A stretch of 64,000 bases of DNA from Gordonia jinghuaiqii (GTDB taxonomy: Bacteria; Actinomycetota; Actinomycetes; Mycobacteriales; Mycobacteriaceae): positions 1,612,001 to 1,676,000 of the forward strand of contig NZ_CP059491.1 of the NCBI RefSeq assembly GCF_014041935.1. Reading direction: 5' to 3'. Of this stretch, positions 5,350-14,259 are shown piece by piece. The notes beneath the pieces are model-generated. The model worked only from the letters and a program-made list of their open reading frames with translations, did not search any database and was not told where the DNA came from. Position 1 is the first letter of the stretch, and every line of letters begins with the position of its first letter. A program made the translations under genes and the position numbers.

Positions 5350-5463
5350 ATGTCCCGTCGTGTCCCGCACCTGTCCGGCCGCCCGCGGAGTGGTGCGTGC
5401 GGCGTCGTGGCCCATCGCCGCCGGGTTGTCGGGTACCCCGACACTGGGCGAGGTCGACGGTGA
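5350..5463 (+). CDS. Putative 37-aa leader peptide, translationally coupled to the flavoprotein gene
   Basis: Small ORF with the best Shine-Dalgarno in this neighbourhood (GGAGG, 4 nt before ATG 5350). It encodes an Arg-rich 37-residue peptide beginning MSRRVPHLSGRPRSG. Its TGA stop (5461-5463) overlaps the GTG start of the flavoprotein gene (5460) as GTGA, the usual sign of translational coupling. The flavoprotein itself has no good Shine-Dalgarno, so ribosomes may reach it by terminating and re-initiating here. The peptide resembles nothing recognised, and it may matter only as a translated leader that controls the operon. Chance occurrence cannot be excluded without ribosome profiling. Confidence 0.5.
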   Translation: MSRRVPHLSGRPRSGACGVVAHRRRVVGYPDTGRGRR

Positions 5464-7316
5464 GCGAGCCTCCGCAGGGGCCGACGCGGGTGGTCCCACA
5501 ACCGGGCGGCCCGGGGTTTCGCCCGCCCCAGCCCGGCCCGCCCCAGCCCGGCCGGCGCCAGCCCGGCGCACCCCAGCCCGGCCCGTCCCAACCCCGGCCG
5601 GGCCCGCCTCCACCGGCACCGCGCCGGGTTCCGCCCCGACCCGGTCCGGGACCCCTCGCTCCTCCCGGATCGCCGCAGCCCGGATCGCCGCAGCCCGGAT
5701 CGCCGCAGCCCGGATCGCCGCAGCCCAGGCCTCGGCCCGGGCCGGCGTCGGGCCGCGCGGAAGGCGGTTCCCGCGGGGACCTCACTCCCGAGTTGGTGGA
5801 GACCGATGTCTGGACCGACGCGATGGTCGAGGCCGCCGGTATCCCGATCGTCGACATCCCGTTCGTCACCGTCGGGTCGGGCATCGGGTCGTTCGTCACC
5901 GTCGACTATCTGCGGATCTCCGGGGTGCCGGCCGACCGGATCGCGGTGCTCGGCCCGCAGGATGTGCCCTGGCACAGTTACGAGTACCTGACCCGGGTGT
6001 CCCAGATCCCGCGCGGCGAGCGCCTTCGTTCGGACTCGGCGTCCACACCGGACAACATCTGGGGTTTCCCGTCGTACGCGGTTCGCGAGGCGTGGGCGGA
6101 CAAGACGTTCAGGCCGCTGTGGAATGTGCTGGTGGAGCCCGTATTCGCGAACTATTACACTCCGAAGGCCGGGCATGCGTTCGAGTCGATGGAAAAGGAA
6201 TGCGAGCGCATCGGTTACCTGAAGTGCTTGCGCCGCGGGCAGGTACGCATGATCCGACGCCGCGCCGGTGGCGGGTACTTCACGATCCTCACCCCGCCGC
6301 AGGGGACGTCGCCGACCAAGCGCGTCGCGTTCCGGAGCCAGTGGGTGCACGTCGCGATCGGCTATCCCGGCATCAAACTCCTGCCCGACCTGCAGGCGTT
6401 CCGCGAGACCTATCGCGACGCAAGCAAGGTGGTCAACGCCTACGAGTCACATGAACACATCTATCAGTCGCTGCATCGCAAACCCGGCACCGTGGTGATC
6501 CGCGGTGCGGGGATCGTCGCCTCACGCGTGCTCCAGCGACTGATCGACGACCGTGACGCCCTGGGCCTGCAGACGCAGATCGTGCACCTGTTCCGGACCT
6601 ACTACGACAAACCCCACGGCCCGCACGTCTTCATGCGGCGCAAGGGGAAAGACGGATGGGCCTACCAGGGGTTCAACTATCCGAAGTCGGTGTGGGGCGG
6701 GCAGCTCAAGGCCCGCATGCGCAAGCTCGAAGGGCATGAGCGCGCCGAGGCGTACAAGCAGATGGGCGGCACCAACACGCCGGTGCGCGACGACTGGCAG
6801 GAACAGCTCGCACGCGGGCGGCGGGAGGGCTGGTACCGCGTCGCCGTCGGAAAGGCGGAGAGCCTGGTGCCCGCTACGGGCGGCCAGGGCGTGGTCACCA
6901 CGGTCCGCGTAGACCCGCACGCGCCCATCCATCAGGAGCACCGACCCGACGGGACCTTCGAGATCTACGCCGACTACGTGATCGACTGCACCGGACTGGA
7001 AGCCGATGTCCGCGAACATCGGTTGCTGAGGGATCTGCTCGACCACACCGGCGCCGGGATCAATCCGGTGGGTCGCATGGACGTCGAACGCGACTTCGAG
7101 CTGAAGGGCACCCGCAACGGCAACGGCAAACTGTATGCCTCCGGCAGCGCGACGCTCGGCGGCTACTTCCCGGGCGTCGACACGTTCCTCGGCCTGCAGA
7201 TCGCGGCTCTCGAGATCGTCGACGATCTTGCGCGGCAGGGTTTCTGCGCGAAGCTCACCCCGTGGCGGTCGACCGCCCAGTGGTGGCGCTGGGTGAACAA
7301 CAAGGGAGTCGACTGA
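5460..7316 (+). CDS. FAD/NAD(P)-binding oxidoreductase with Pro-rich N-terminus
   Basis: 618-residue predicted flavoprotein, starting at GTG 5460. Residues 1-110 are low-complexity Pro/Gln/Gly, including four exact PGSPQ pentapeptides encoded by 15-bp DNA repeats. The rest is a two-dinucleotide-binding-fold protein. GSGIGSF at about residue 140 is a likely FAD motif, VVIRGAGIVASRVL at about 345-357 a second Rossmann motif, and DYVIDCTGLEAD near residue 510 resembles the ATG/CTG motif of flavin monooxygenases and reductases. The exact reaction is not recognised. It heads a tightly packed operon (1-nt gap to the membrane protein). By analogy with KefF/KefG, the flavoprotein partners of Kef antiporters, it could be the redox input to the antiporter two genes downstream, which is speculative. 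Confidence 0.72.
   Translation: MSEPPQGPTRVVPQPGGPGFRPPQPGPPQPGRRQPGAPQPGPSQPRPGPPPPAPRRVPPRPGPGPLAPPGSPQPGSPQPGSPQPGSPQPRPRPGPASGRAEGGSRGDLTPELVETDVWTDAMVEAAGIPIVDIPFVTVGSGIGSFVTVDYLRISGVPADRIAVLGPQDVPWHSYEYLTRVSQIPRGERLRSDSASTPDNIWGFPSYAVREAWADKTFRPLWNVLVEPVFANYYTPKAGHAFESMEKECERIGYLKCLRRGQVRMIRRRAGGGYFTILTPPQGTSPTKRVAFRSQWVHVAIGYPGIKLLPDLQAFRETYRDASKVVNAYESHEHIYQSLHRKPGTVVIRGAGIVASRVLQRLIDDRDALGLQTQIVHLFRTYYDKPHGPHVFMRRKGKDGWAYQGFNYPKSVWGGQLKARMRKLEGHERAEAYKQMGGTNTPVRDDWQEQLARGRREGWYRVAVGKAESLVPATGGQGVVTTVRVDPHAPIHQEHRPDGTFEIYADYVIDCTGLEADVREHRLLRDLLDHTGAGINPVGRMDVERDFELKGTRNGNGKLYASGSATLGGYFPGVDTFLGLQIAALEIVDDLARQGFCAKLTPWRSTAQWWRWVNNKGVD
5664..5723 (+). repeat. Four exact 15-bp tandem repeats
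   Basis: The unit cccggatcgccgcag occurs four times head to tail inside the flavoprotein gene. It adds PGSPQ per copy to the Pro-rich N-terminus. Unit length is a multiple of three, so copy-number change keeps the frame. Confidence 0.9.
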
Positions 7317-7317
7317 C

Positions 7318-7767
7318 ATGTTGCCCACCCTGTGGGGACGTATCCAGACCCGCGTACTGGTACTCGGGATCCTCGGCGGCCTGTGGACCATCGTCCTCAC
7401 GCCGTTCCTGTGGCTGATCTCTTCGGGTGATCCGTCGATCGTCGACACCTACCGAGTCGCGTTCACCGTGCTGTTCACGGTCATCGTCCTCGGCGTCGTC
7501 TGGGAGTTCATCTATCACCTCCTGCAGCAGTTCCGCTGGGAGAAGGACTGGCCGACACTCTTCGGTCTACTGACGGCCATCAACGAGGGCATCGTGGTGT
7601 GGCTGGTCATCCACGGCACGGGGCTGTTGCCCGAGTCGTTGCGGCCGTCGCCGCTGGTGTTCGCCGTGCAGTTCGTCTCGACGTGGCTGTTGGTGTGGGT
7701 CGCGGTCAACGGTCCGCTGCGGGTGATCTTCCCGCACTGGCGATTCCAGGGAGGCAGATTCCTGTGA
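7318..7767 (+). CDS. Small integral membrane protein, 149 aa
   Basis: Not recognised as a named family. It has four likely transmembrane segments: VLVLGILGGLWTIVLTPFLW (about 13-33), VAFTVLFTVIVLGVVWEFI (about 46-64), LFGLLTAINEGIVVWLVI (about 82-99) and FAVQFVSTWLLVWVAV (about 114-130). A charged loop (QQFRWEKDW) and a basic, aromatic C-terminus suggest cytoplasmic exposure. It sits 1 nt after the flavoprotein stop, and its own TGA overlaps the GTG start of the FHA gene (GTGA). Translation of the three is therefore probably coupled. It may anchor the flavoprotein or FHA protein near the antiporter, which is inference from position only. Confidence 0.72.
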   Translation: MLPTLWGRIQTRVLVLGILGGLWTIVLTPFLWLISSGDPSIVDTYRVAFTVLFTVIVLGVVWEFIYHLLQQFRWEKDWPTLFGLLTAINEGIVVWLVIHGTGLLPESLRPSPLVFAVQFVSTWLLVWVAVNGPLRVIFPHWRFQGGRFL

Positions 7768-9317
7768 CCATCCCGGGTGACATCCCGAGCGTCACGCCGA
7801 CGGTGACGCTGATCCCCGGCGCCGGGATCGCGATCCGCAAACCCGCGTTCCTCTGCCTGATGGCCGACACGGTACCGGCGGCGTTCATCACCGATCTGCT
7901 CGACATCGAATCCGCCGTCGCGGTACCCGATTCCGCCCCGCGTCGTGGCCGGCACCTGGTGCGTGCGCTGGCGCAACTCGTCGCGACGGCAGAGGACCAG
8001 ATCGACATCGCCTTCGCCGCACCGGACAACGCCGGCATCGCGATCTTCCTCTCGGGCGCGGTCTACGGCGAGACCGACGGCAAACGCATCGAACCGCCGC
8101 CCGGCGACACCTACGACAAGGCCGTGCCGTGGCCGTTCGAGGGCCTCGGACTCTATCTGGACGGGACCGTACCCGCCGAGGTCGGCGACGAACGGTTCGA
8201 CCTCGTCGACGGCGTGGTCCCGGCTGCCGGAACGCTGCTGCACACGCCGTTGGGACTGCGTGGCACCGAGTTTCACCCGATCCCGGCCGCATCCGGGCAG
8301 CCGGAACCGGTAGCGCCGGAGCCGGTGGCGCCGGAATCTGCGGCACCCGCGCCCGCGCTGCGGGCCGAGGACCCCACCCCGCCGCCGGAACCGTTGGTCA
8401 AGCGCTCGCCCGTCGACGATCTCCCGTCGGCACCGGACGCTGCTGGGGAGCCAGAGCCAGAGCCGGAGCCAGAGCCGGAGCCGGAGCCGGCCGTCGAATC
8501 CGGTTCAGCGGCGGAGCCGTCGGCGGAGTCCGTCCCGATGGGGACCACGGAACGGATGGCGCCGGGAGTCCCGGCATCGCCGCAGGCCGACCCGTTGCCG
8601 TTCACCTCGACGCCACTGGGCGGGGTGTTCGACGAGGCCCCGTCGGCGCCGCGTCTGCCCGCCGACCCGCGTCCACTCGACGCGCGCCCACTCGATCCGC
8701 GCCCACTCGACCCGCGCCCACTCGACCCGGGCCCGCCGCCGGCCGACCCGTTCGCCGAACCCCTCGGACCGCGAGCGCCGCTGCCCAAGGAGGAACATCA
8801 GAAACCCGCGACCGAGGTCGTCCGGATCGAGGCATCGCGGGCCATGGTGCACGGCATCCGGTGCTCGCGTGGTCACCTCAACCATCCGCAGTCATGGTTG
8901 TGCGGCATCTGCGGTATCCGAATGGATCAGCTGACCACGTTCCTCGTCGAAGGTGAGCGTCCACCGCTCGGCTGGCTGCTGCTCGACAACGGTTTCACCT
9001 TCCTGCTCGACGAGGACCTCGTCATCGGGCGTGAGCCCGGCACGGTGGGAGGGGGACCGGCGGGTTCGCCCAAACCGATACGCGTGCAGGACGAGACGGG
9101 CCAGCTCTCGCGCCGGCACGTGGAGATCCGGCTCGTCGAATGGACGGTGCAGCTCGTCGACCTCGGCTCGGCCAACGGGACCTTCGTCGCCGATCCCAGC
9201 GGCGGCAACCGCGAAACGCGACTGCTCCCTCATCGCCCGCATGTGCTGGTTCCCGGATCGCATGTGCGAATCGGGGGACGGCACTTCATCTTCGAGTCGC
9301 ACCACGCCCGGATCTGA
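7764..9317 (+). CDS. FHA domain protein with zinc ribbon and low-complexity linker
   Basis: 517 residues starting at GTG 7764. Residues ~1-175 form an unrecognised alpha/beta domain. Residues ~175-355 are a Pro/Glu/Asp-rich linker with a (Glu-Pro)7 run and four PLDPR-type pentapeptides. A small treble-clef/zinc-ribbon candidate (CSRGHLNHPQSWLCGICG, about 367-384) leads into a C-terminal FHA domain (about 400-515). Its phosphothreonine-binding hallmarks GRE, SRRHVEIRL and DLGSANGTF are intact. FHA domains read phosphothreonine, so this product should dock to a phosphorylated partner. Both kinase folds in the neighbourhood look catalytically dead, so the writing kinase is probably elsewhere. 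The gene overlaps its upstream neighbour by 4 nt and ends 1 nt before the antiporter. Confidence 0.85.
   Translation: MTIPGDIPSVTPTVTLIPGAGIAIRKPAFLCLMADTVPAAFITDLLDIESAVAVPDSAPRRGRHLVRALAQLVATAEDQIDIAFAAPDNAGIAIFLSGAVYGETDGKRIEPPPGDTYDKAVPWPFEGLGLYLDGTVPAEVGDERFDLVDGVVPAAGTLLHTPLGLRGTEFHPIPAASGQPEPVAPEPVAPESAAPAPALRAEDPTPPPEPLVKRSPVDDLPSAPDAAGEPEPEPEPEPEPEPAVESGSAAEPSAESVPMGTTERMAPGVPASPQADPLPFTSTPLGGVFDEAPSAPRLPADPRPLDARPLDPRPLDPRPLDPGPPPADPFAEPLGPRAPLPKEEHQKPATEVVRIEASRAMVHGIRCSRGHLNHPQSWLCGICGIRMDQLTTFLVEGERPPLGWLLLDNGFTFLLDEDLVIGREPGTVGGGPAGSPKPIRVQDETGQLSRRHVEIRLVEWTVQLVDLGSANGTFVADPSGGNRETRLLPHRPHVLVPGSHVRIGGRHFIFESHHARI
8448..8489 (+). repeat. (Glu-Pro)7-encoding hexanucleotide run
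   Basis: Seven near-identical GAGCCA/GAGCCG hexamers inside the FHA gene encode an alternating Glu-Pro rod. This is a likely slippage-prone site. Confidence 0.85.
8670..8729 (+). repeat. Four 15-bp tandem repeats (PLDPR linker)
   Basis: Four 15-bp units of the form cgcccactcgacccg (the first two carry one or two substitutions) inside the linker of the FHA gene. They encode four copies of Arg-Pro-Leu-Asp-Pro/Ala. Confidence 0.85.
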
Positions 9318-9318
9318 C

Positions 9319-11445
9319 ATGGACAAACACACGGTCGCGTTCCTGCTCCTCGATGTCGCCGTCATCATCGCGGCCGCCCGCATCGGCGGGATGATCGCGC
9401 GGGCGCTGCGGCAACCCGCGGTGGTGGGCGAGATCGCGGCCGGAATCGCGTTGGGACCGAGCCTGTTCGGTCTGCTCCCGGGTAGCCCCGACGAATGGTT
9501 GTTCCCCGCCGATGTCCGGCCGCTGCTGGGTGCACTGGCCCAGATCGGTCTGGTCCTGTTCATGTTCATCGTCGGCCTCGAGCTCGACATGCGCCTGACT
9601 CGCGGGCGGGAGCGAGCCGCGGCGAGCATCTCGGTGTGCTCGATCGTCCTGCCGTTCGGACTCGGTGCGGCACTGGGACTTCTGCTCTATCCGTCACACA
9701 ACGTGGTCGACGGCATGGAGATCGGCCGCCTCGGGATGGTGCTCTTCATGGGCGTGGCGATGTCGATCACCGCATTCCCCGTACTCGCCCGCATCCTCGC
9801 CGACCGCGGCATGATGCGCACCGTCCCCGGCGTCTTCAGCCTGGCCGCGGCCGCGATCGACGACATCATCGCGTGGACGATGCTGGCGTTCATCATCGCG
9901 GTCATCCAGGGCGGCAGCCCGCTCGCGGTGGCCGAGATCGTCGGGATGACGCTGGTCTACGCGGTCGTCATGTTCGGTATCGTCCGGCCGCTGCTGGCCA
10001 AGCTGATCACCTGGCGCGACAGGGCCGGACGCCTGACCCCGGACATCCTCGCGGTCATCCTCGTCGGACTGTTCCTGTCCGCGGCGGCCACCGACGTCAT
10101 CGGCATCCACCAGATCTTCGGCGCGTTCATGTTCGGCGCGGTGATGCCGAAGACCGGTGCCGAACAACTGCACCGGGACATCCTGGAACGGCTCGAGCAG
10201 ATCAGTGTGCTGCTGTTGCTGCCGATGTTCTTCGTGGTCACCGGACTCACCGTCGACCTCACCTCGATCGGCTTCGCCGGCCTGGGACAACTCGCACTCG
10301 TGCTGCTGGTGGCGATCGCGGGCAAGTTCGTCGGAGCCTATGTGGGCGCCAGGGTCAGTGCGATACCCACACGGCAGAGCGCCGCCATCGCCGTGTTGAT
10401 GAACACCCGTGGCCTGACCGAACTCGTCATCCTCACCGCCGGACGCGATCTGGGGGTGCTCAGCGACGAGCTGTTCGCGATGCTGGTGGTGATGGCGCTG
10501 GTGACCACCGTGCTCACCGAGCCACTACTGCGGTTGGTCTATCCGGATTCGGTGGTCGTCAAGGACATCGCCGCCGCCGAGCGTCGCGCGCTGGCGGCGG
10601 CCACCGCGCCGCGGGTGATGGTGGTGCTCCGGGACCCGGCGGGCACGGTCGATGACCTGCGCGCCAGGCACCGCAGGCTTCTGGACTGCACCACCGGATA
10701 CGACGTGGTGCTCGCCGGCCTGCTGACCGCCCCGGACCGCACCGCGCAGCGTCTCGAGGTCGGGGTGCCGGTGGTACCCGACTTCGCCGCCATCGCGTCG
10801 GCGATCGAGAAGCTGAACCTGTTGGGTGCGTCGTTGACCGGTGCGGGCTCGGCGTCGGTGTTGTGCCGCTTCAGCGCCGACCCCGCGGCTGATCTCGACG
10901 CGATGGCGGAGAACGCCAACGCCGACGTCATCTTCCTCGACAGCACGAATCGAGATCTGGCCGGGGCACTTCGGGCCGCGCCGGTCGCGGTCGTCGACGA
11001 GATGATCGCCGCCGGCGCGGGACCGGGCCGGAGCACCATCACCTGCGTTGCCGCCGACAGCCGGAGCGGGCGTACCGCCGTACTGCTGGCAGCCGGTCTG
11101 GCGTTGTTCGGGTCGAGGTCGCTGACCGTCGTGGCCGCCGGTTCCCGGCGGCGATGGCTGGCCGACCTGAATTCCGTTGTCGTGCAGGGTGTCGCCGTCA
11201 CGGTGATGGACCCTCGCCGCCACCGGGCGGACGCCGCCTCGTTCACGGTGACCGCAGGTGATGACCCGGCTTCGGGCGTGGCGGCGCCGGTGACCGTCGT
11301 CGACGACACCGGGACGAGCGAGGAGTCGTTGAGCGATCGGGTGGCGATGCTCTACCCGGCGCCGGCCGACGAGGCCGCCGACCTGCCGGCGGCCCGTGAC
11401 ACACCACCACCGAACATCACGTCGTCATCACCGGAGAGGCACTGA
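9319..11445 (+). CDS. CPA2-family cation:proton antiporter (KefB-like) with C-terminal soluble domain
   Basis: 708-residue monovalent cation/proton antiporter. The first ~400 residues hold the 12-13-helix Na+/H+ exchanger fold. Landmarks are VVGEIAAGIALGPSLFG, GLVLFMFIVGLELD, AFPVLARILADRG, AAAAIDDIIAWTML (the conserved Asp pair region) and MNTRGLTELVIL. The C-terminal ~290 residues are soluble and show no canonical RCK/TrkA-N GxGxxG motif. Instead they look like two alpha/beta nucleotide-binding-type halves (RVMVVLRDP..., STITCVAADSRSGRTAVLLA), reminiscent of USP-like regulatory domains. It lies 1 nt after the FHA gene and 1 nt before the pseudokinase gene. The most direct reading is a K+/H+ or Na+/H+ exchanger whose activity is set by its operon partners (inference). 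Confidence 0.85.
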   Translation: MDKHTVAFLLLDVAVIIAAARIGGMIARALRQPAVVGEIAAGIALGPSLFGLLPGSPDEWLFPADVRPLLGALAQIGLVLFMFIVGLELDMRLTRGRERAAASISVCSIVLPFGLGAALGLLLYPSHNVVDGMEIGRLGMVLFMGVAMSITAFPVLARILADRGMMRTVPGVFSLAAAAIDDIIAWTMLAFIIAVIQGGSPLAVAEIVGMTLVYAVVMFGIVRPLLAKLITWRDRAGRLTPDILAVILVGLFLSAAATDVIGIHQIFGAFMFGAVMPKTGAEQLHRDILERLEQISVLLLLPMFFVVTGLTVDLTSIGFAGLGQLALVLLVAIAGKFVGAYVGARVSAIPTRQSAAIAVLMNTRGLTELVILTAGRDLGVLSDELFAMLVVMALVTTVLTEPLLRLVYPDSVVVKDIAAAERRALAAATAPRVMVVLRDPAGTVDDLRARHRRLLDCTTGYDVVLAGLLTAPDRTAQRLEVGVPVVPDFAAIASAIEKLNLLGASLTGAGSASVLCRFSADPAADLDAMAENANADVIFLDSTNRDLAGALRAAPVAVVDEMIAAGAGPGRSTITCVAADSRSGRTAVLLAAGLALFGSRSLTVVAAGSRRRWLADLNSVVVQGVAVTVMDPRRHRADAASFTVTAGDDPASGVAAPVTVVDDTGTSEESLSDRVAMLYPAPADEAADLPAARDTPPPNITSSSPERH

Positions 11446-11446
11446 C

Positions 11447-12259
11447 ATGGCCACTGTCGAGATCCCGCAACAGCTGGCGGATTTCACCGTGCTCCAGAAA
11501 CTGGGAGTCGGCGGGAACGGCACGTTCTATCTCGCCGAGCCTCCCGCGCGGTTGGGTCTGGCCACCGATCGCGTGGTGGTCAAGGTGTTCAGCGGGGTGT
11601 GCAGTGACGACGCCTACCGGCGCGGAGTGCGTGAACTGCGAGCCTTCGCCGCCGTCGCCTCGCCTTTCCTGGCCGGGCTGTACGACGCGGTTCTGCAGGG
11701 CCAGTTCATGTATGCGATGGAGTACTTCCCGCTCGGTTCGCTGGGCACCCCGACCCGGCCGCTGACCCGGGACGAACGACTGGCCGCGATCGCCGATGCG
11801 GCGCGCGGCGTGGACGCCCTCCACGAGGCGGGGATCGCGCACGCCAACATCACCCCGTCGAGCATCATGGTCACCGACACCGGTGGCAAGATCTCCGATC
11901 TGGGCCTCGCGCGGGTCCTGGCGGCCGAAGAACCGATCACCAGTTTCGCGCAGCCGGGCGCGGTGCAGTACATGGATCCGGCGCTGCTGGCCGGCGACGT
12001 GCCGTCGCGGGCGACCGACATCTGGTCGCTCGGCGCGTGTCTGCATCGTGCCCTCACCGACGAGGGCGTGTACGGCGAGGTGCCGGATGCGCAGCCGCTC
12101 TTGGCGATTCGCGCAGCACTGTCCACGCCGCCGGCGCTGTCGGAGAACCTGGACCGCGACGAACGCGCGCTGATCGCCAATTGCCTGGCACTGACCGGGA
12201 GCAGGCCGTCGACCGCGGCGGAGGTCGCCGACCGCATCGACGCGCTCCTCCGGCGCTGA
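11447..12259 (+). CDS. Predicted pseudokinase (Hanks-type Ser/Thr kinase fold lacking catalytic Asp)
   Basis: 270-residue soluble protein spanning a whole PknB-like kinase domain and nothing else. The Gly-rich loop (LGVGGNGTFY, residues 19-28), ATP-anchoring Lys46 (VVVKVF) and a likely helix-C Glu63 are kept. In the catalytic loop, however, HRDLKPSN reads HANITPSS (132-139). The proton-acceptor Asp is Asn134, the loop Lys is Thr136 and the Mg-binding Asn is Ser139. The DFG motif is DLG (151-153). It may therefore still bind nucleotide but should not phosphorylate. It is the last gene of the flavoprotein-FHA-antiporter operon, so a scaffold or allosteric role on the antiporter or FHA protein is plausible. 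The original start is ATG 11447, 1 nt after the antiporter stop. Confidence 0.82.
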   Translation: MATVEIPQQLADFTVLQKLGVGGNGTFYLAEPPARLGLATDRVVVKVFSGVCSDDAYRRGVRELRAFAAVASPFLAGLYDAVLQGQFMYAMEYFPLGSLGTPTRPLTRDERLAAIADAARGVDALHEAGIAHANITPSSIMVTDTGGKISDLGLARVLAAEEPITSFAQPGAVQYMDPALLAGDVPSRATDIWSLGACLHRALTDEGVYGEVPDAQPLLAIRAALSTPPALSENLDRDERALIANCLALTGSRPSTAAEVADRIDALLRR

Positions 12260-12276
12260 TCGCGGAGACAACGCAC

Positions 12277-13854
12277 TCAACCCAACGGGGCGCTGCGCCA
12301 CCAGTCGTCGAGGATCTGGCGGCCGGTGTGCCCGGGCCAGGTGGTGATCACGGTGTGGTCCGCCTGCGGCGGGCCGGTGAAGTTGGTGACCACCCAGCCG
12401 TCGACGACGCTGTCGCGGCTGGCCGACGCGGGGCCGTCGCGCCACCGGATCTTGTTGCCGGGGTGCCCTTTCAGCGTCGCGGTGACCGCACGGCGCGATT
12501 CCGGCGTCGGGGTGTGCCAGACGGCGAAGGTGACCTGTGCGGGGTCTGTGCACGTGATGCCGTCGATGCCGTCACGAGACACGTTCTGGCAGGAAGCATC
12601 TCGCCAGGCCCGCGATTCCGGGGTGGCCGGGAGGAGTTGCGGGAAGGCGTCAGCGATCGGCGACACCGCCGGTGGCCATGGCGGCGGGGTGTTGCGCGTA
12701 CCGAGCACGATGAGGGTGCCGACGACGACGGCGACCACGACGAGCACCACCAGCATCGGTGCGAGGAACCGACGGCGTGGCGCCGGCGGCGAACGGTGGT
12801 GCGGAGGCGACGATGACTGCGCCCCGTGCCCAGCGGGTCCGGGTGCCGGCGCGGCGGATTCACCGGGGCCGGATTCGCCAGGGCCGGATTCGACGGCGCG
12901 ACGGTCGGTCACGATCTCCGTCGGACGGTCGGGATGCCCGCCGGGATGAAACAGGCGCGGTGTGCTGCCGCCCGGCGATCGGCCGGCCAGGACGTCGGTC
13001 GCATCTGCCGGGTTCGGGTCGGCGTCGGCAGGTGGCGCAGCCCCGATGACCTCGGTCGGCGGCTCCCCGTCGGTGCGAGTGAGGTGAAGGGCCAGGTCCG
13101 CGGCCCGGATGAACTCCGCGCACGTCCGGTAGTGCTGATCGGGGCCCGGGTCGAGAGCGCGGGCCAGGACGGCGTAGAAGGCCGGGGAGACCGCTCCGGA
13201 CACCCGGTGCCGCGCGACCGAGGTTGTACCGGTGAGCAATTCGGCGAGAGTGCGGCCGAGTGAGGCGACGTCGCTCGACGGGTGCGGCGAGGTCTCGGTG
13301 GCGCTGAGTCGTGCCAGGCCGAACCCGGTCAGGGTGACGACCCCCGGCTGCGCGGCGTCGATCTGCGTCGGCTCGGTGACGGCGAAGAGGATGTCGGCGG
13401 GGGAGACGGCGCCGTGGACCAGCCGCTTGCGATGCGCCGCGTCGAGGGCGTCACCGACGACTCTCACGAGACGTACGGCGAGATCGACGTCGATTCCGTC
13501 GGGATGGCGCTGCAGCAGTTGTGCGGCGTCGGCGGCAGGCACAGGCGCCGTGGCGGCCCACGCATGACCGTCGGACAGCCCGTGGCCGACAACGCGCGCG
13601 ATGGCGGGATGCCGCATTCCGGAGGCCGATTCGTTGGCGCGGGCAAACCAGGCGAGGGCTCGCGGGTCGGCCGATGTGTTCCGGTCGACGACGGTGAGGA
13701 CGACCTGTCCGGGCCGTGGTACGACTGCGCCCGGCGGGGGCGTGGCGAGGTAGACGAACCCCGTAGCCCGTTGCCGGAGTACACGTTCGACACGATGGCC
13801 GGCCACTCGTGAGCCGGGAGCGAGAGGACCGCCGTGAGTGGTATCGAAAGACAC
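12277..13854 (-). CDS. Membrane-anchored degenerate kinase-fold protein (pseudokinase)
   Basis: 525 residues laid out like a PknB receptor: N-terminal kinase fold (about 18-275), Pro/Ser-rich juxtamembrane linker, one transmembrane helix (about 365-384, MLVVLVVVAVVVGTLIV) and an extracytoplasmic domain (385-525) with two Cys. All catalytic elements are lost. The VAIK Lys position reads VVLTVV (Thr54), HRDxKxxN reads HGAVSPAD (147-154), and DFG reads GFG (177-179). It should neither bind Mg-ATP normally nor phosphorylate. It faces the other pseudokinase gene tail to tail with a 17-nt gap. GGGAG before GTG 13854 supports the start. A small membrane-protein gene lies upstream on the same strand. 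The outer domain could be a sensor. Confidence 0.83.
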   Translation of the reverse strand: MSFDTTHGGPLAPGSRVAGHRVERVLRQRATGFVYLATPPPGAVVPRPGQVVLTVVDRNTSADPRALAWFARANESASGMRHPAIARVVGHGLSDGHAWAATAPVPAADAAQLLQRHPDGIDVDLAVRLVRVVGDALDAAHRKRLVHGAVSPADILFAVTEPTQIDAAQPGVVTLTGFGLARLSATETSPHPSSDVASLGRTLAELLTGTTSVARHRVSGAVSPAFYAVLARALDPGPDQHYRTCAEFIRAADLALHLTRTDGEPPTEVIGAAPPADADPNPADATDVLAGRSPGGSTPRLFHPGGHPDRPTEIVTDRRAVESGPGESGPGESAAPAPGPAGHGAQSSSPPHHRSPPAPRRRFLAPMLVVLVVVAVVVGTLIVLGTRNTPPPWPPAVSPIADAFPQLLPATPESRAWRDASCQNVSRDGIDGITCTDPAQVTFAVWHTPTPESRRAVTATLKGHPGNKIRWRDGPASASRDSVVDGWVVTNFTGPPQADHTVITTWPGHTGRQILDDWWRSAPLG

Positions 13855-13947: not shown

Positions 13948-14259
13948 TCAGCCGCTCTCGAAGAGGACCGGCGCGGAATTGAACAGCATGACGATGAAGA
14001 AGACGAGCAGGAACCACGCGCCGCCCTGCCAGACCTGCCAGCGCCCGCCGCGCTTGTAGACCCGGTAGGTCCGGAACAGCATGGCGATCGCCCCGACGAG
14101 AACCACGATGGGCGAGGCGATGATGAGCACGGTCTGCAGTGAATCCGATGACGCGTGCGCGATCAGCAGCAGACCGAGCCCGAAGACAACCGTGACGACG
14201 ATGTGGACGACCATCGCGCGAAAGTCGTTGTTGCCGTTCTGTGGTAGCGGTGAAGTCAT
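13948..14259 (-). CDS. Small membrane protein, 103 aa, three TM segments
   Basis: No family recognised. Three hydrophobic helices are predicted: AMVVHIVVTVVFGLGLLLIA (about 15-34), VLIIASPIVVLVGAIAMLF (about 44-62) and WFLLVFFIVMLFNSAPVLF (about 82-100). A basic aromatic loop (RTYRVYKRGGRWQVWQGG) joins helices two and three. A TAATCT hexamer 10 nt before ATG 14259 suggests a near-leaderless transcript. It lies 93 nt upstream of the membrane pseudokinase on the same strand and may be co-transcribed with it. Function unknown. Confidence 0.68.
   Translation of the reverse strand: MTSPLPQNGNNDFRAMVVHIVVTVVFGLGLLLIAHASSDSLQTVLIIASPIVVLVGAIAMLFRTYRVYKRGGRWQVWQGGAWFLLVFFIVMLFNSAPVLFESG

Follow-up and report, generated by a model that had tools for sequence, protein, structure and literature searches.

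A recurring actinobacterial gene set in Gordonia jinghuaiqii: a candidate phospho-controlled antiporter module with an FHA adaptor and a pseudokinase

The window analysed here is a stretch of 64,000 nucleotides from the 5.18-Mb single-contig genome of Gordonia jinghuaiqii (G000; NZ_CP059491.1, positions 1,612,001 to 1,676,000), and this report concerns six adjoining genes in it that may encode a controlled cation/proton antiporter. Five of them lie on the plus strand. The first (5460..7316) encodes a flavoprotein of 618 residues whose nearest named relatives are from Gordonia species; it starts with GTG, and an in-frame GTG at 5397 is a possible alternative. After a gap of one nucleotide comes the gene of a 149-residue membrane protein with four transmembrane segments by eye (4-TM protein, 7318..7767), which overlaps by four nucleotides the GTG-started gene of a 517-residue protein with a forkhead-associated (FHA) domain, here called the FHA adaptor (7764..9317). 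A 708-residue antiporter of CPA2 type (9319..11445) and kin1, a soluble kinase fold (11447..12259), follow, each after a single nucleotide. The sixth gene, kin2, encodes a membrane-anchored kinase fold on the minus strand (12277..13854), tail to tail with kin1 and 17 nucleotides from it. These gene calls bear out the sequence-only reading, an earlier reading of the letters of the window, which had described a tightly packed five-gene plus-strand cluster facing a membrane-anchored kinase fold. A scan for promoters and terminators was uninformative (0 promoters; 2 terminator-like sites vs 2.6 by chance).

At least 1998 entries of the protein database are related to the flavoprotein, as counted among the scored candidates, those with most words in common. 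From named genomes we took the best 80 of 160 loci, selected via the flavoprotein, and searched them, together with the window, with the window proteins; loci on truncated contigs stay in the denominators of this 81-locus set, and a kin1-type kinase was counted above 140 bits. Flavoprotein and 4-TM genes stand together in 81/81 loci and the FHA gene is found in 77 of the 81, the four misses all having a contig end at most 1.6 kb from the flavoprotein. The antiporter is present in 53 loci and a kin1-type kinase in 54, namely all 53 antiporter loci and L052, so that the antiporter is accompanied by kin1 in 53/53 cases. Of these 53 antiporters, 22 share the strand of the flavoprotein and 31 are encoded opposite to it; the corresponding numbers for kin1 are 47 and 7, and kin1 may follow the antiporter, precede it or lie upstream of the flavoprotein. 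The set has therefore been re-ordered but kept. Among the 28 loci without an antiporter, 5 have a contig end within 3 kb and the others come from Nocardia (19), Parafrankia (2), Antrihabitans (1) and Pseudonocardia (1). The Antrihabitans and Pseudonocardia genomes carry a long antiporter relative elsewhere (51% and 44% identity, aligned to residue 678 or beyond); in Antrihabitans (L092) it lies on the same contig, 44 kb from the triad of flavoprotein, 4-TM and FHA genes, and is divergent from its kin1.

Co-occurrence was then counted in 151 genomes asked for as relatives, 35 with and 116 without the flavoprotein. With cut-offs chosen after the tables were seen (antiporter >460 bits, kin1 >229 bits) and with relatedness uncorrected, a long antiporter is found in 33/35 flavoprotein-positive and 0/116 flavoprotein-negative genomes, and kin1 in 33/35 and 2/116; the positive genomes that miss are G103 and the 74%-complete G121. 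The Fisher values of 3e-31 and 2e-28 ignore relatedness and were not used. We also drew 394 genomes evenly from the class, of which 24 hold the flavoprotein, the own genome included. All positives except G000 and G006 contributed loci, 25 from 22 genomes, a 74-codon match with a stop in G370 being left out. At least eight of these loci are probably identical to loci of the 80-locus set (L060, L064, L065, L071, L075, L076, L078, L080), and the two sets cannot be treated as independent. In the class sample the 4-TM gene is present in 24/25 loci, the FHA gene in 23/25, the antiporter (>790 bits) in 10/25 and kin1 (at least 380 bits) in 11/25, including all ten antiporter loci. In a search at E 1e-35 kin1 was found in 1 of 118 class genomes besides the own genome; kin1-type kinases are therefore uncommon across the class. 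The sequence-only reading had proposed that the genes form a conserved unit and had named rare co-occurrence as the finding that would speak against it. The neighbourhood and co-occurrence counts went the other way. A chance neighbourhood was rejected on the linkage (81/81 for flavoprotein and 4-TM gene, 53/81 for antiporter and kin1) and on the distribution of the long antiporter, and the gene set is a real, recurring actinobacterial module. No published description of it was found among the titles and abstracts listed by our searches, which left most subscription papers outside coverage.

The ratio of nonsynonymous to synonymous substitution rates (dN/dS) was computed in close Gordonia pairs. 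It is 0.040-0.055 for the flavoprotein, which together with kin1 (0.023-0.059 in five close pairs, 0.15 in two wider ones) is the most constrained product, 0.10-0.30 for the 4-TM protein, 0.076-0.188 for the FHA adaptor, 0.11-0.18 for the antiporter and 0.20-0.32 for kin2 (0.51-0.56 in two wider pairs).

The flavoprotein has a Pro-rich N-terminal part of about 100 residues and two dinucleotide-binding motifs, GSGIGS (residues 139-144) and GAGIVA (residues 349-354). Pfam and NCBIfam yield no match for it up to E 1, and the PDB contains no sequence relative, even with a profile search. Its AlphaFold2 model (mean predicted local distance difference test score, pLDDT, 86) has a predicted fold that matches YpdA, PvdA/SidA, FMO and TrxR. 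The flavoprotein is therefore like the PvdA/SidA N-hydroxylases and the bacillithiol disulfide reductase YpdA in predicted fold and unlike them in sequence; for SidA/PvdA, Pfam, NCBIfam and PDB sequence searches did not place it in the family. The 4-TM protein has no Pfam or NCBIfam match near cut-off either, and is marked by invariant WExxYHxxxQxRWEKDWP, E90, NGPxR and WRxxGxR across 35 rows. The module adds two protein families without Pfam models.

In the FHA adaptor a PP2C-like N-terminal domain (residues 2-166, 7767..8261, plus strand) is followed by a Pro-rich linker, a zinc ribbon of the form C-x3-H...C-x2-C-G (8862..8915, plus strand) and the FHA domain (Pfam FHA, 7e-9; 9024..9275, plus strand). 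The zinc ribbon that the sequence-only reading had seen here holds up across the family: the zinc ligands C367, H371, C380 and C383 are invariant in 37/37 rows. So are R423, S449, R450, H452, N471 and G472, which we take to be the phosphothreonine-binding residues of the FHA domain. The N-terminal domain, of about 165 residues, is assigned to the PP2C fold by prediction, and its fold matches include TAB1 and RssB, which we take to be PP2C-fold regulators without phosphatase activity. It resembles these two in fold and differs from them in its small size and in its fusion to a zinc ribbon and an FHA domain. Active PP2C phosphatases are marked by invariant acidic metal-binding motifs. In the alignment the domain has no invariant Asp or Glu, the best acidic column reaching 29/35 and the next 20/32. 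Because the invariant acidic residues are missing, the predicted domain is likely a pseudophosphatase, and it is a candidate for a bacterial one.

The antiporter matches a single Pfam family, Na_H_Exchanger (PF00999, 2e-53). Its closest solved relatives are entries 4bwz (8.4e-20 by single sequence) and 5bz2 (7.5e-33 by profile, the best), both of which we take to be the Na+/H+ antiporter NapA. D182 and K336 are invariant in 22/22 rows; D181 is kept in 19/22 by eye, with VD or ID in the other 3. The D181-D182 pair, the ion-binding DD (codons at 9859..9864, plus strand), and the Lys of transmembrane helix 11 (TM11) align with those of 4bwz. A DD motif with a TM11 Lys is described for NapA, and QD is the ion-binding motif of the Kef systems, in the part of the source available (PMC11150392). 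The antiporter differs from the solved NapA chains in length, since these have 385-394 residues and end before its soluble tail begins, at about residue 415. No RCK/KTN domain was found in this tail by Pfam, KefC matching the profile weakly and only over the transmembrane part (14-428), and the tail alone has no sequence relative in the PDB below E 0.5. NCBIfam TIGR00932 gives 151.6 bits against a curated cut-off of 238.3. The sequence-only reading had called the protein a KefB-like CPA2 antiporter; by sequence the CPA2 type stands and the protein is NapA-like, and the KefB-like assignment was rejected on the DD site and the absence of a detected RCK tail. The broader analogy with KefC-KefF and KefB-KefG, potassium efflux systems whose CPA2 antiporter is likewise encoded with a redox flavoprotein, is not supported at family level either. 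KefF has a flavodoxin-like fold, unlike the window flavoprotein with its two dinucleotide-binding domains. A USP-like tail is a feature of plant CHX antiporters; such a tail was not evident here, the PDB sequence search with the tail having matched nothing.

kin1 is recognised by Pfam as a kinase (Pkinase, 2e-21) and in the window reads HAN where kinases read HRD, so that N134 (codon 11846..11848, plus strand) takes the position of the catalytic Asp; the beta-3 Lys (K46) and the Asp of DLG (D151) are kept. In the 67 rows of the family alignment the beta-3 Lys is present in 67/67, the DFG Asp in 66/67 and the HRD Asp in 49/67. All 18 exceptions carry Asn: 13 rows of a single Gordonia clade and 5 rows linked to alpha-glucan genes (100/100 support each). 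These 18 rows have also lost the metal-binding Asn that follows the catalytic loop (Ser in 12 and Ala in 1 of the Gordonia rows), as has L101. The activation-loop T165 (codon 11939..11941, plus strand) is kept in 66/67 rows, dead kinases included. In the tree, the kin1 family forms a fully supported branch (100/100) separate from the receptor-type kinases of the same loci. Rows with fewer than 200 aligned residues were omitted from this tree, L009 and L101 sit on long branches, and one locus appears twice (the identical pair L011 and L103); L009, G. jinhuaensis, was counted as Gordonia by name, and the kinship table (G072) assigns it to a neighbouring genus.

Among the 60 module-linked kin1 rows the catalytic Asp is kept in 47, which are all the rows from outside Gordonia, and the Gordonia kin1 is therefore best read as a pseudokinase in a real but derived state. 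The sequence-only reading had described a kinase fold without catalytic Asp, which holds for the window and is confined to Gordonia among the module-linked kin1 rows, and it had suggested pseudokinases as scaffolds. The purifying selection on the Gordonia kin1 fits a scaffold; pseudokinases as the basis of the whole system are not supported, given the 47/47 rows with Asp and the intact kin2-type kinases of several lineages. Because the catalytic residue is lost and strong selection persists, the Gordonia kin1 is probably a docking platform rather than an enzyme. Its own genome has 17 other kinase loci, whose products could phosphorylate it in trans. The available part of one source describes ActPs2, actinobacterial pseudokinases in which Asn likewise replaces the catalytic Asp (as in 13/13 Gordonia and 5/5 glucan-linked rows here); almost all of these have Arg for the beta-3 Lys, most have DFG deleted, about 90% carry two insertions, and transmembrane segments are common (PMC12599244). 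The kin1 family differs from them as described there in keeping the Lys and the DLG/DFG Asp. Since the kinase of this kinase-adaptor pair looks active in most lineages and is dead in others, the pair amounts to a natural experiment, and the residual role of a bacterial pseudokinase is therefore directly testable.

kin2 has only sub-threshold Pfam kinase matches (0.0017-0.0042), and in the window all three catalytic motifs are lost, HGA, GFG and VVLT standing in their place, in agreement with the degenerate membrane-anchored fold of the sequence-only reading. Near relatives lack the three motifs too. In G. oryzae, G. polyisoprenivorans, Geodermatophilaceae and Occultella a related kinase, encoded downstream of kin1 on the minus strand, is intact, and in L006, L044, L012, L013 and L059 the C-terminal part of kin2 aligns too. 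On this sequence evidence kin2 is kin to intact receptor-like kinases, and the window lineage appears to have lost catalysis in both kinases of one cluster.

Copies of the FHA and kinase genes were also found on other systems. In the two kin1-positive, flavoprotein-negative genomes (G075 and G077) an FHA protein of the same layout, with zinc ligands and FHA residues kept, and a kin1-type kinase lie directly behind pst-type phosphate-import genes (L100:5597-7886, L101:6150-8425), with a phoU-like gene near (pst and phoU by eye); the L101 kinase lacks the DFG Asp. No paper on such a pair was found in the literature searched. In five further genomes the pair stands beside alpha-glucan genes (glgB/glgE/maltokinase-like by eye; L108:7622-9782, L109:5886-8407, L110:5853-8337, L111:5892-8104, L112:6599-8597). 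All five kinases read HRN and DPG and form a second pseudokinase branch, which by the tree lost the catalytic Asp separately from the Gordonia kin1. Their FHA proteins have no zinc ribbon and carry SS or SG in place of SR, with Gly-Arg, Ser, His and Asn-Gly kept. The profile of the N-terminal domain picks up 3/5 alpha-glucan copies and both pst copies; for the full FHA profile the count is 7/7. Judged by sequence, the FHA adaptor and kin1-type kinase are a portable regulatory pair that has been placed on several outputs. That it occurs with another transport system, pst, argues most strongly for its action on the antiporter in the window, and together with the alpha-glucan copies the pst-type copies suggest that transport and storage share a principle of control.

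Taking these results together, we tentatively read the gene set as an actinobacterial (Actinomycetota) cation/proton antiporter module under phospho-control and probably also redox control, in which the FHA adaptor would dock on a kinase or pseudokinase. In this scheme, inferred throughout as to interactions, phosphorylated residue, ion, sense of gating and redox input, there would be two sub-units, one of flavoprotein, 4-TM protein and FHA adaptor, the other of the NapA-type antiporter and its own kinase kin1. The ancestral kin1 would be an active Ser/Thr kinase whose phosphothreonine product most likely lies in its own activation loop (T165), in the antiporter tail or in both; this is where the FHA adaptor would dock to switch antiporter flux, and at the membrane the flavoprotein/4-TM pair would add a redox signal from NAD(P)H. 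In Gordonia, kin1 would be phosphorylated in trans by another Ser/Thr kinase and would recruit the FHA adaptor without catalysis of its own. Such a module could be one way in which actinobacteria tie ion exchange to redox state and to phosphorylation in the absence of the Kef/glutathione system.

The nearest working precedent is the mycobacterial lipid II flippase MviN, whose pseudokinase domain is phosphorylated by PknB and recruits FhaA (PMC12599244, PMC11898655). As there, the membrane transporter of the window would be controlled through a trans-phosphorylated pseudokinase and an FHA protein with retained phosphothreonine-binding residues, the three proposed roles being spread over separate proteins and joined by a redox flavoprotein. 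As far as the accessible parts of these sources go, the MviN pseudokinase is fused to the transporter and has neither the canonical Lys, HRD and DFG motifs nor a complete activation loop (PMC12599244), whereas kin1 is a separate gene that retains Lys, DLG and the Thr of the activation loop, and most of its relatives look active; no counterpart of the flavoprotein, the 4-TM protein or the PP2C-like part was seen there. We file the window set as a variant of this known kind, kinase/FHA control of a membrane transporter. There is a serious case that the portable pair of dead-phosphatase-FHA protein and kinase or pseudokinase is a kind of its own. Still more loosely held is a wider reading, in which an FHA adaptor with a dead phosphatase domain and a kinase dedicated to it would make up a new kind of portable control unit, one that attaches to membrane transporters as well as to enzymes of storage carbon and has repeatedly been rebuilt catalysis-free (the Gordonia antiporter branch, the alpha-glucan branch and, for the DFG Asp, one pst copy). 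In the window, catalysis-free folds (a pseudophosphatase and two pseudokinases) would then surround one working phosphothreonine reader, and the cluster would couple a redox flavoprotein to a NapA-type antiporter.

Several observations weigh against the proposed antiporter module. Antiporter and kin1 are absent within 10 kb of the triad in 19/19 Nocardia and 2/2 Parafrankia loci, and antiporter matches in 9/9 searched Nocardia genomes stop by residue 431, so that these genomes have no long antiporter. Antiporter control can therefore not be the sole role of the FHA protein, and a further partner of it, perhaps the flavoprotein together with the 4-TM protein, must exist. In the class sample 15/25 loci have no antiporter, which a contig end can account for in no more than 3 (L117, L134, L136), and two (L132, L133) have flavoprotein and 4-TM gene without FHA. 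Some antiporter members are much shorter, shorter relatives (212-374 bits) occur in nine flavoprotein-negative genomes, and at E 1e-30 a kin1 relative appears in six, not two, of those genomes. The MviN phosphosite, in the available part of the account, is in the C-terminal tail and not in an activation loop. L132 and L133 are second copies of flavoprotein and 4-TM gene, with no FHA, antiporter or kinase gene within the 20-kb stretch; this bare pair suggests that the two are the minimal unit.

In a different, rather unlikely arrangement, the FHA adaptor and kinase would control flavoprotein and 4-TM protein as the actual output, an oxidoreductase or monooxygenase that is associated with the membrane and depends on NAD(P)H, and the antiporter would merely restore ion or pH balance when this enzyme works. 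The pair is the invariant core (81/81 and 24/25 loci), stands without antiporter and kinase in loci of Nocardia and of the Frankia type and without FHA in L132 and L133, and includes one of the two most constrained products, with a fold like those of N-hydroxylases and disulfide reductases. This arrangement leaves unexplained why the antiporter is never found without kin1 and why the FHA and kinase pair also stands behind phosphate-import genes. That the genes are merely co-regulated parts of one stress response, forming no complex, is improbable: the sub-units can be 44 kb apart on a contig (L092), but the 1-nucleotide gaps and the overlap in the window, the recurrent re-assembly in differing orders and the strong co-presence speak for more. 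Retained catalysis by the Gordonia kin1 despite the Asp-to-Asn change, as weak kinase activity or another transfer reaction, is very improbable; Lys46 and Asp151 are kept, and SelO is a described example of a pseudokinase that has taken on new chemistry (PMC12599244), but the metal-binding Asn has gone too. Decay of the degenerate kinases into relics, to which the loss of all three motifs in kin2, its faster evolution (0.21-0.32 within the window's clade vs 0.20 between two intact copies) and the lack of a kin2 match in Gordonia loci L008, L009 and L010 might point, is scarcely credible for the two kinases together and was rejected for kin1, whose 13 Gordonia rows are uninterrupted and whose close pairs are as constrained as the flavoprotein.

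Some neighbouring genes deserve mention. A small membrane protein (13948-14259, minus strand), with no family above cut-off, adjoins kin2 in Gordonia loci only (10/81). In the 19 Nocardia loci (within L014-L038) the triad lies, by eye, beside NADH dehydrogenase subunit-like genes, with RuBisCO-like genes nearby in 14-16 of them, and in Antrihabitans (L011, L016) type VII secretion (EccC-like) genes lie upstream of it, again by eye. A kinase, a vWA protein and a PP2C phosphatase adjoin the module upstream of the flavoprotein in seven Nocardioides-type loci (L058, L061, L062, L064, L069, L073, L079). This set is not in the window and was not counted as part of the module. Six of the seven loci add a double-FHA trypsin-like protein; for the neighbours in these loci the Pfam assignments come from L062.

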